Shown in pieces: positions 2,368 through 46,748 of a DNA stretch of 64,000 nt (positions within the stretch are counted from its first letter, which is position 1; the number at the start of each line of letters is the position of its first letter). The translations under genes were made by a program, and so were the position numbers. Location of the stretch: the NCBI GenBank assembly GCA_023248635.1, contig JAHFED010000025.1:1-64000 (forward strand), written 5' to 3'. The notes below the pieces were generated by a model. It was given only the letters and a program-made list of their open reading frames with translations. It was not told where the DNA came from and did no database searches. This DNA is from Myxococcales bacterium (GTDB lineage Bacteria; Myxococcota; UBA727; VGSZ01).

Positions 2368-2556
2368 TTCAAGACGCCGACGTCTTGAACAAGAAGAACT
2401 TCAAACCGCGCCAGCGGTTTGAACATCAAAACTTCAAACCGCGCCAGCGGTTTGAACATCGAAACTCCAAACCGCGCCAGCGGTTTGAACATCAAAACTT
2501 CAAACCGCGCCAGCGGTTTGAACATCAAAACTTCAAGACGCCATCGTCTTGAACCA
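2368..2556. repeat. Six-unit palindromic repeat array
   Basis: Six palindromes start at 2368, 2400, 2433, 2466, 2499 and 2532, a 32-33 base period. The four central units have arms TTCAAACCGC / GCGGTTTGAA around GCCA (the third starts TCCAAACC); the outer two have TTCAAGACG / CGTCTTGAA arms. Units are joined by AACATCAAAAC-type linkers. The array fills most of the gap between rplO and secY and would be transcribed as six successive hairpins. From 2557 to 2705 the gap holds degenerate related pieces and nothing else recognised. Confidence 0.92.
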
Positions 2557-4212: not shown

Positions 4213-4236
4213 TTCAAGCCGCGCCAGCGGCTGGAA
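4213..4236. repeat. Palindromic repeat, single copy
   Basis: Arms TTCAAGCCGC and GCGGCTGGAA around GCCA, followed by CATCAAGACTTCAAAC, the same flank as in the 2368 array. It sits 22 bases upstream of rpsE on the transcribed strand. Confidence 0.8.
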
Positions 4237-4315
4237 CATCAAGACTTCAAACGAGTATCTAAGCGAGACGCGAATGCAAGGCGTCGACGTCTCTGGTGGG
4301 GCTATGGGCGCGAGC

Positions 4316-24197: not shown

Positions 24198-24262
24198 GCC
24201 GCTGAGAGCCACGAGCCTCCGCCCGATCGCCGCACCCTTTCGTCCCTTTCCACAGTTTGATG

Positions 24263-24286
24263 TTCCAGCCGCTGGCGCGGCTTGAA
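24263..24286. repeat. Palindromic repeat between rpsL and rpsG
   Basis: Arms TTCCAGCCGC and GCGGCTTGAA around TGGC, preceded by GTTTGATG. This is the reverse orientation of the element before rpsE. It lies in the 103-base gap and would be transcribed between the two coding regions. Confidence 0.8.
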
Positions 24287-36717: not shown

Positions 36718-37410
36718 CTACCCGTCGACGACGGGGGGCGGCTTGCGCTGCCAGCGGATCATCAAGGGGACCAACACCACCGTCGGCACAAACCACATCA
36801 CGGTGGTGGCGCTGCCGGTGGTGAAGCGTCCGGCGGTGTTGACCAGAAAGGCCGTCAACGTGGCGATGCAGGCGATCAACATGGCGCCGATGTGGCCTTC
36901 AAGCCAGAAGCGCCGCGTCTGCGGAGCGCGCGACAGCGTCTTCAGCTGCGGGACGGCGGTCAGCAGGCCCAAGCCCGAAAAGAGTAGGCCGAGCGTGAAT
37001 CCGACCCTGCAAGAGTACGCGGCCATCAGCACGGTCGCGAGCACCAGCGCGATGGCAGGGACGTAGTCGACGACGAGCGGGTGCGTCGACGTCCGCGCCT
37101 TCTGACCCAGGATGCGCACGCCGTAGACGGCAGCGGTGAATGACATCAAGCCGACGTAAGCGAGGAAGAGCGACGACGGCCACTGCGCCTCCGGGCGTTG
37201 CAGCATCCGCAGGGGAGCGATGGCCCAGGACAGCACGGAGGCAACGCCCATGGCGATGACGAAGACCCAACCGGCGCGCCGGTGCAGCGCGTTGCCTTTG
37301 CGCACCACCAACGGGGGCGCAAACGAACACAGGGCGACGACGCCGGCAGCGATGTGGATGCCGCGCAACCACTCGACGACGGTCTCAAGACGCGCCGGCG
37401 TCATGAACAT
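36718..37410 (-). CDS. Multi-pass membrane protein, DUF2306-like
   Basis: 230 residues from ATG 37410 (ATG 37404 is an alternative), with about seven hydrophobic segments. HIAAGVVALCSF, GNALHRRAGWVFVIAMGVAS and RFWLEGHIGAMLIACIATLTAF resemble the DUF2306 group of membrane proteins with conserved His, of unknown function. It starts 24 bases downstream of the sensor hybrid stop, so it is probably cotranscribed. Confidence 0.7.
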   Translation of the reverse strand: MFMTPARLETVVEWLRGIHIAAGVVALCSFAPPLVVRKGNALHRRAGWVFVIAMGVASVLSWAIAPLRMLQRPEAQWPSSLFLAYVGLMSFTAAVYGVRILGQKARTSTHPLVVDYVPAIALVLATVLMAAYSCRVGFTLGLLFSGLGLLTAVPQLKTLSRAPQTRRFWLEGHIGAMLIACIATLTAFLVNTAGRFTTGSATTVMWFVPTVVLVPLMIRWQRKPPPVVDG

Positions 37411-37433: not shown

Positions 37434-40400
37434 TCACTTGCTCTTCAGCTCGACGACGCCGTCGAAGCTTGGCGGCAGTCCCTCGATCAAGGTCTGCTCG
37501 CAGCGGGTGATCCACAGCCGAGCAGCGTCGTCGTCGGGGGCGGTTGCGTGAGCTTGCTGAAAACGATCGAGGGCCCCCTTCACGTCGCGCTCTTGGAAGA
37601 GCTTCCAGCCTTCGACAAAGACCGTGCGGCTGGCCAAGCGCCGGTCGCGGGCCGCTGGCGGCAGGCCGTCGAGCACCTCGTAGACGGTCACTGGTTTGGT
37701 CTTGCCCTTGACCCGCACCCGGTCGACCACGCGAAGGGCGTAGGCGCTCTTGTCGACAAGGGCATCGTGGGTGAACTCGCTGATCAGAAAGGTCGCGCCA
37801 TAGATCTTGGTCATGCTCTCGACGCGGGCGGCGAGGTTGACGCTGTCGCCGATGACGCCGCAATTGATGCGGTTCTTGCCGCCGATGGTGCCCAGGGTGA
37901 GCCGACCGGTGTTGACGCCGATGCCCACGGCCAGCGGCTTGTCGCCAGCGCGCAGGCGCTCGACATTGTGCTGCTCCAGCGCCCGCAGATCGCCGATGCC
38001 CGCGCGCACCGCCTGGTCGGCGCTGTGACGAGCCCCCGTGCCAGTGCCGCCGGCGAAGAGGGCCATGATGGCATCACCGATGTAGCTATCGATGAATCCA
38101 CCTTCAGCTTGGATCGGCGGCTCCATCTGCGTCAGATAATTGTTGATGAAGCGGAAATTCTGCTCCGCGGTGTTTCCCTCGACGTGCGTCGTGAACGATC
38201 GGATATCGGAAAATAGGATCGACATCTCCTTTTCCAAATGATCACCACGCCGAACTTCGACGAGATTTTCTCTCCCCAAAATGCGCAAGAACTCGCGGGG
38301 CACGAAGCGGCCGCTGGCGACGTTCATGCGGGCCAGCGACAGGTGGGTGCGCAGGCGCGTGAGCAGCTCTTCTTTGGCGACGGGCTTGGTGAGGAAGTCG
38401 TTGGCGCCGGCGGAGAAGCCGTCGACGAGGTCCTTCACCTGGTTTTTGGCGGTGACCAGCACGATGGGCAGCTCGGAGGCGGGGAAGCGCTCACGCAAGT
38501 CGGCGCAGACGGCGTAGCCCGACATCCCCGGCATCATGACGTCGAGCAGCACCAGATCGGGGCGGTAGCCGCCGGCGATGACGTCGAGGGCCTCGCGTCC
38601 GGATTCCGCCCGCCGCACCTCTGCGCGCTGCAAGGCCTGACCCGAGAGCGCGAGGTGGTTCTCGAGCACGGCCAAATTAATGGGTTCGTCGTCGACGATC
38701 AGCACATGGAAGGCATCGGCACCCGACAGCGCAGGCGTGGGTGCGGGCACCACGAGCGCTTCGCGACCAGCGGCGTCGGCCGAGGCCTTCTCGGCTTCGG
38801 CCGCTCGCAGGCGGTTGGTGCGCGCGGGTCCGGAGCGCTCGAGCTTTTCGCCTTCGGCGGCCACAGCGACGCTGAAGGTGAAACGAGAGCCCTTGCCGAG
38901 CTCGGAGTCCACCGTGAGGGTGCCGCCGTGCAGCTCAACCAGCTCCTTGCTCACCGACAAGCCGAGGCCGGTGCCGCCGTACTCGCGGGCCGTCGATCCA
39001 TCGGCCTGCTCGAAGGAGTTGAAGATGCGCGCTTGGGCGGCCTTGGGAATGCCGATGCCGGTGTCTGCGACGGTGACGAAGACGCGCGCACCGTCGACGC
39101 GGGCGGAGACCTCGACGCTGCCGGCGCTGGTGAACTTCAGCGCGTTGCCCACCAGGTTGGTGAGGATCTGCACCAAGCGGTCTTCGTCGGCGCTCACCAG
39201 GGGCAAGTCGGCAGGGACCTTCGAGAGCAGCTCGACCGGCTTGTTCTCACCGTTTTGATGTTCAAGCCGCTGGCGCGGCTTGATTTGAGCGCGGCCCAAC
39301 GAGAGCACCAAGTCGACGACGGCGACGACGCTGACGGCGTGGGGGCTCAGGCTCAGCTTGCCGCTCTTCATCTTGCTGAAATCGAGGATGTCGTCGACGA
39401 GAGTCGCGAGGCGTCGGCCGCTCTTGAGCACCAGAATCAGGTTCTTCTTCACCGCCTCGGGCAAGATTCCGCCGACCCCGTCGAGCAGGGAGTCGGCGAT
39501 GCCGATGATGCCATTCAAAGGCGTGCGCAGCTCGTGCGAGGTGTTGGCCAGGAAGTCGTCCTTGAGCTTGTCGAGCCGCAGCAGCTCACGGTTCTTGCCC
39601 TCGAGATCGCGGTTGAGCTCGTCGACGGAGTTGTAGACCCGCATGAAGCAGTTGCTCAAAGACACGGCCATGGAGAGCATGAAGATGGTCATGCCGCCGG
39701 TGAGCTCCAGCAGCGCGTTGTCGAGGGGCCGCTTCTCGATGATCCCCAAGGTCTGCAAGATGGTCCCCGAAAAGACGAGCATGCAGGTGACCAGCCCGAG
39801 CACGATGGTGCGGGCCTCGGCCTTCTTCTCGTCGTCACCCTTGAAGGCGGCCTGCAACACCACGACGCAGGCCATCAAGACCCAGGGGAGCCAGCTCAGG
39901 CTGCGCAGCGGCGTGGTCGCGCACGCAAACCACAGGCCAGGGATAAAAATGGTCGCCGCGAAGAGCGAAAGTTGAGCCACTTGATAGCCGCGCCAAAAGC
40001 GATTCAAATCTCGGCCAAGAAATGGCCAGAGAAATTGGATGAATAAGACACCGATCAAACAACCAGCGGCCAGCGAAATCTTGATGCGTACCACTTCGTC
40101 GGTGGTGACCGGATCCCACCACCAGGTGTGCATCGTCGACACCAGGCCGATCACGATCAGCAACAGTCCCAGCCATAGATATTCTTTCAGTGTTTGACGA
40201 CGACGAAATAACTGTAGGTGATAGAGCCCCATGAACACCAGGATCGCGCCCAATGGACCGGTGGGGGTTTGGCCGTGCTGGTGTTTCAGGCGGATGCGAT
40301 CCATCTCTGCTTCGAGCTCGGCGTGGCGCCCGAGCCAAACCGCGTCGGTGATGCCGTCGACGCCGAAGGCCTTGCTGCCGAAAGCCCGGGCCAAGTCGGG

Positions 40401-46641: not shown

Positions 46642-46748
46642 CAAAGTTCTTCCTGCCCGGCGCCGTTGGCATGGCGCGAGTGCTACTGCTTTGCGCCGTT
46701 GGCACGGCTCAAAGTGCTTCCTGCTTTGCGCCGTTGACGGCTCAAAGA
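46642..46748 (-). repeat. Three palindromic repeat units upstream of radical SAM operon
   Basis: Three GCCGT-TGGC-ACGGC-type units (46662-46675 GCCGTTGGCATGGC, 46695-46710, and a shortened GCCGTTGACGGC at 46730-46741), each with the CAAAGCAGGAAG-ACTTTG flank on the minus strand. The last flank supplies the AGGAAG before the start codon at 46641. 46749-46892 shows nothing further. Confidence 0.85.

Follow-up and report, generated by a model that had tools for sequence, protein, structure and literature searches.

The window analysed here, a stretch of 64,000 nucleotides from a Myxococcales bacterium, contains a gene for a hybrid sensor kinase in which Pfam recognises 7TMR-DISM_7TM, HisKA, HATPase_c, response regulator (receiver) and guanylate cyclase domains (Table 1). 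Between HisKA and HATPase_c, the gene harbours one unit of a dispersed repeat, here called F1, which is read on the minus strand from 39284 to 39252 and encodes residues 586-596 (11 amino acids). The unit is composed of a linker and a hairpin with a TGGC loop (39271-39274), and as single-stranded DNA the kinase copy folds with -11.1 kcal/mol (z -5.5, 0 of 200 shuffles). An earlier sequence-only reading had located a palindromic repeat copy in frame between the HisKA and ATPase domains, and such a copy is indeed present in the 1201-residue kinase.

Table 1. Positions of the kinase gene, its insert and further repeat copies in the window
Feature	Position	Strand	Basis
Hybrid sensor kinase gene, 1201 aa	37434..41039	-	ORF list, Pfam
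HisKA domain, residues 493-560	39360..39563	-	Pfam
HATPase_c domain, residues 618-725	38865..39188	-	Pfam
One F1 repeat unit, 33 bp, in frame in the kinase	39252..39284	+	Repeat homology, alignments
9-bp linker of the kinase F1 unit, GTTTTGATG	39252..39260	+	Column conservation, 47 single copies
24-bp hairpin of the kinase F1 unit, TTCAAGCCGC-TGGC-GCGGCTTGAT, 9 paired bases	39261..39284	+	
CGGCTTG outside the repeat, native kinase codons K-P	39237..39243	+	Alignment
Degenerate F1 copy directly beyond the kinase stop codon	37384..37407	-	
F1 head-to-tail array, four units, 33-bp period, between secY and rplO	2400..2528	-	
Single F1 copy, 5' side of a ribosomal-protein gene	4213..4242	-	
Single F1 copy	24257..24286	+	
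F2 hairpin copy	46690..46713	+	

Deleting the F1 unit in silico leaves the reading frame open, creates the junction LGRAQGENKPVELL and results in a gap-free alignment with the paralogues of the kinase. The sequence-only reading had proposed a larger insertion of 39 bp, bounded by a CGGCTTG direct repeat and adding 13 residues. Both CGGCTTG copies exist, the second at 39276-39282 and 39 bp from the first, but the K-P encoded by the upstream copy aligns with a K-G that is common among other kinases. The upstream copy is thus native to the kinase and does not flank an insertion. The motif occurs 23 times in the window versus 17.3 +/- 3.9 expected, which is about the chance level. Repeat homology extends over 33 bp from 39252, the homologues are shorter by 11 and not by 13 residues, and 47 single F1 copies reveal no target duplication, as 5-9-bp flanking direct repeats are not in excess (mean 1.38 versus 1.13 with swapped flanks). 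The native codons, the 11-residue gaps and the swapped-flank controls led us to discard the 39-bp insertion, which is extremely unlikely, and the linker GRAQIKPVELL that its excision was thought to restore is two residues too short. The proposal that the insertion was tolerated as a multiple of three without a stop in that frame is supported.

In MAFFT alignments with paralogues and homologues at 26-53% identity, 18 of 19 homologous kinase domains have a gap of 11 residues at the insert site, and one divergent sequence has a gap of 13. Two full-length paralogues from the same genome (45-47% identity) lack exactly these 11 residues, and kinases from the PDB likewise fit an 11-residue excess in the window kinase. 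Of 27 kinases, 25 have 113-117 residues between His-box and N-box; the outliers, with 126 and 127 residues, both bear repeats, and the 127 residues of the window kinase equal the 116 of the paralogues plus the 11 of the insert. Related kinases therefore lack the insert, as had been anticipated, with the qualification that 11 residues and not 39 bases' worth are absent, and the opposite outcome, in which all orthologues would carry the residues, was not observed. A true orthologue of the kinase was not found in the closest relatives, so that the kinase evidence, taken by itself, would depend on homologues. Within this frame, the alignments support the view that the insert would represent the in-frame landing of a lineage-specific, mobile-type repeat. 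In a structural model of the HisKA-HATPase region (mean pLDDT 88.8), the insert lies within a longer helix (85-110) and the inserted block has a pLDDT of 64; the model predicts, at this lower confidence, that the insert extends the helix that runs up to the ATPase domain.

The genome to which the window belongs comprises 6.53 Mb in 135 contigs and is 96.7% complete, with some stretches masked. At up to three mismatches it contains 165 matches to the variant found in the window and 332 matches to the family consensus, the F1 core GATGTTCAAGACGCTGGCGCGTCTTGAA, while a reversed control gives none, which agrees with the earlier designation as a repeat. A 2.44-Mb sample of this genome holds 243 F1 copies versus 2 control matches, and these copies form 111 separate clusters on 22 of the 23 sampled contigs. 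No match was detected in 57 relatives, including two of the same genus and one of the same family, and a looser pattern applied to 195 genomes of the phylum retrieved only three isolated matches with two mismatches outside the own genome. Searches for the exact core in 84,980 species genomes and in viral contigs, collections that may omit the window's own genome, gave no match, and a pattern scan of genome contigs revealed no other carriers of it.

F1 units consist of a 9-10-bp linker and a 24-bp hairpin with a TGGC loop, and neighbouring units are spaced by 33 bp (57 cases) or 34 bp (60 cases), mostly in the same orientation. The 47 single copies have a 14-bp 5' part (TTGAAGTTTTGATG) and the 24-bp hairpin in common, and conservation ends sharply at the 3' foot. 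When copies were retrieved by the left arm alone and the right arm was then read for Watson-Crick pairing, compensatory changes were found at seven or more of the 10 stem pairs; stem position 7 is A-T in 172 copies and C-G in 25, with 28 of 53 left-arm changes compensated. Degenerate copies are present in the window at 37384 and at other places. F1 copies are also located in ribosomal protein operons, at 2400-2620 (rplO/secY) and 4213 in the window and at position 125883 of contig C78. The extra hairpins provided by copies between rplO and secY and between rplJ and rplL could affect expression.

A k-mer scan of the same genome for further palindromes revealed two sister families. F2 has the structure TTTGmGCCGT-TGGC-ACGGCkCAAA with a period of 34-35 and, in the own genome, 391 matches; one match with three mismatches is present in each of two relatives, and none in the others. 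F3 is a 63-bp (21-codon) unit that contains TTCATCGCC-GCCA-GGCGATGAA, with 167 matches in the own genome and none in relatives. Examples of F3 sites are C11 31612, C28 20534 and C133 25588, and the repeat is read in frame as repeated GSSPGGDEFTDSASRVGELST-like peptides in tsaB-like, lipB-like and other ORFs. Some arrays combine F1 with F2 units and keep the usual spacing, for instance at 12857-12985 of contig C9. Among the perfect, non-N 10-bp stems that enclose a 4-nt loop in the sample, about three quarters (173 of about 228) have a TGGC or GCCA loop. This common loop may point to a common mobiliser for F1-F3, and common descent would also explain it. Two further dispersed repeats occur in the sampled contigs, one about 207 bp long (k-mer count 55), the other 31 bp (AATTGGCCGCCCGGCCTGAGGGCAGAGAATT, count 24).

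A second, clear insertion into a protein-coding gene is found in metH, encoding methionine synthase (L067, contig C58), where one F1 unit contributes the sequence FKTRQRLEHQ to the B12-binding domain. All 80 retrieved metH orthologues lack exactly 11 residues at this site, alignment of the MetH structures 8g3h and 8ssc shows the same net difference of 11 residues, and a 76%-identical orthologue from a deltaproteobacterial MAG (VGSZ01000070) provides the empty site at the DNA level. As judged from these comparisons, the metH case settles the principle that an F1 unit can insert in frame and add 11 residues; in the modelled B12 domain, the MetH insert lies in a loop connecting a helix with a strand. 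With this parallel, the empty site in homologous kinases and the absence of the whole family from close relatives, the earlier notion of a lineage-specific, mobile-type repeat is supported. F1 is also found within a gene for a DUF2520 Rossmann protein. According to Pfam, F3 is carried by ORFs for EPSP synthase (aroA), a TsaD-family protein, which has TsaB/YeaZ as its best PDB matches, and lipoyl ligase (lipB). All of these, including the DUF2520 gene, are probable cases of in-frame insertion.

In a second histidine kinase (L275:8968-11532, minus strand), an F2-type unit occupies the same linker between HisKA and HATPase; this kinase accounts for the spacing of 126 residues and is about 11 residues above the normal linker length. 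Since this linker is a signalling helix and two different kinases contain TGGC-loop units in it, the 11 residues could be regarded as an adaptive, selected change of kinase signalling and not as merely tolerated. We consider this quite improbable, because like inserts are present in metH, aroA, tsaB and lipB, genes without a common signalling role, and the coincidence of two kinases is weak, kinases being numerous. The inserts would instead be selfish and merely tolerated, without a function of their own.

Strictly supported clusters in genes and in frame amount to 4 of 108 for F1, 3 of 65 for F2 and 4 of 49 for F3, as compared with 55% of random positions. These clusters keep an open frame through the insert, openness being partly a criterion for their selection. 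With a rougher gene set that over-calls (94% coding), 22 of 111 F1 clusters fall within genes, and under either gene set F1 copies are strongly depleted in genes. An apparent preference for gene 5' ends (F1 40:14, F2 31:5) disappeared when the real base-pair shares of the intergenic gap types were considered.

No match to Y1_Tnp (PF01797), the domain of RAYT transposases, was found in the own genome at its 96.7% completeness and with some stretches masked, which speaks against an origin as RAYT-driven REP. Y1_Tnp is present in 18 of 29 relatives, which lack these repeats. A recurrent gene family beside the repeat copies was not detected. The only RVT_1 match in the own genome is the reverse transcriptase of a type XIII retron (L306, contig C11 74044-77655), which consists of RT_XIII (E 1.9e-143) and a SWIM_XIII gene separated by a long msd-like hairpin. 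The intergenic gap of this retron also contains an F1 copy with a variant loop, located between the SWIM gene and the ncRNA region. As this copy lies outside the msd-like hairpin, it looks like an ordinary insertion, and a retron origin of F1 was rejected.

The exact 33/34-bp tandem arrays, the lack of target duplication and the lack of a detected transposase would also be in line with a spread that involves no transposition, through replication slippage, template switching or gene conversion at hairpins. Slippage accounts for the growth of arrays, but explains neither the scatter of 111 separate F1 clusters over 22 of the 23 sampled contigs nor the single copies inside metH and the kinases; this possibility is therefore unlikely. 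More probably, transposition or copying spread the units as single copies, which would then have grown into head-to-tail arrays with a period of 33/34 bp. Most units would persist between genes, and insertions into genes would mostly be lost. The surviving in-gene units would be those that add whole codons (11 for each F1 unit) at a tolerant site and in a frame without stops, and one of them may have lengthened the HisKA-HATPase linker of the hybrid kinase by 11 residues. Overall, the segment at 39252-39284 is very probably one unit of a high-copy, species-restricted group of short mobile palindromes of the REP/RPE type. The different stems of F1-F3 combined with their common layout and TGGC loop allow the more tentative suggestion that a single loop-recognising enzyme outside the Y1 family has spread all three; they could then constitute a new type of mobile palindrome that remodels core proteins through a 33-bp step, in quanta of 11 residues, although we regard this as the less probable view.

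Rickettsia is the best-known case of in-frame palindromic insertions. The same outcome is seen here in another lineage with a GC-rich genome of 6.5 Mb and involves metH, kinases and probably aroA, tsaB and lipB. About 900 hairpin units are specific to one species, without any RAYT found. Two questions have thus become testable: which agent mobilises REP-like repeats that have no transposase, and how frequently such repeats give rise to new stretches of protein.

Among the closest known systems are the REP/BIME repeats of the GTAG and CGTC superfamilies, which are likewise hairpins of 20-40 bp with hundreds of copies, restricted to a species, with compensatory stems, and mostly intergenic, clustered and mosaic (PMC3733652). 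F1 and F2 are short high-copy palindromes of this size (24-bp hairpin plus 9-10-bp linker), and the few F1 clusters within genes make F1 predominantly extragenic. Intragenic REPs have been reported for several species (PMC3733652). In contrast to REP/BIME elements, the TGGC loop is constant across F1, F2 and F3. It is doubtful that these are REPs in the strict sense whose RAYT, a Y1 tyrosine transposase, was lost recently or is missing from the draft assembly. The size, hairpin, compensatory stems, species-restricted amplification and mosaic clusters would match, and a RAYT could have been missed in the incomplete and partly masked genome. However, a cognate, repeat-flanked RAYT gene is absent from the available sequence, relatives with Y1_Tnp have no such repeats, and instead of a GTAG or CGTC tag beside the stem the foot is GATG/GATGG (F1) or CTGC (F2). 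In addition, the arrays are head-to-tail, with neighbours at 33/34 bp mostly sharing one orientation, whereas most CGTC REPs form inverted dimers (REPIN/BIME; PMC3733652). CGTC REPs are also said to be without a dedicated transposase (PMC3733652), and the absence of one here is therefore not unprecedented.

Target-duplicating transposons and MITEs provide another comparison. MITEs are small, non-autonomous, dispersed repeats with inverted symmetry (PMC10969869), but the units described here are far smaller, consist of a single hairpin, show no target-site duplication in the single copies, and no terminal repeats of a resident transposase were identified. The PARCEL repeat, an amphipathic, palindromic coding repeat of 25 residues in tandem (PMC2996958), is similar in being palindromic, coding and tandem, and differs from the present units, which have 11 or 21 codons and reside mainly between genes. 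The Rickettsia palindromic elements (RPEs) are inserted in frame in unrelated protein genes of these intracellular bacteria, where they encode an inserted peptide, and are described as about 150 bp long (PMC10969869). The kinase, metH and the second kinase, and probably aroA, tsaB and lipB, share with them in-frame insertion into unrelated genes and absence from orthologues. The units of 33 and 63 bp are set apart from the RPE families by their described length, and they also differ by their hundreds of copies, their strong depletion in genes and the 6.5-Mb GC-rich host genome. By analogy, F1-F3 behave like REP/BIME repeats and, inside genes, like the Rickettsia palindromic elements.
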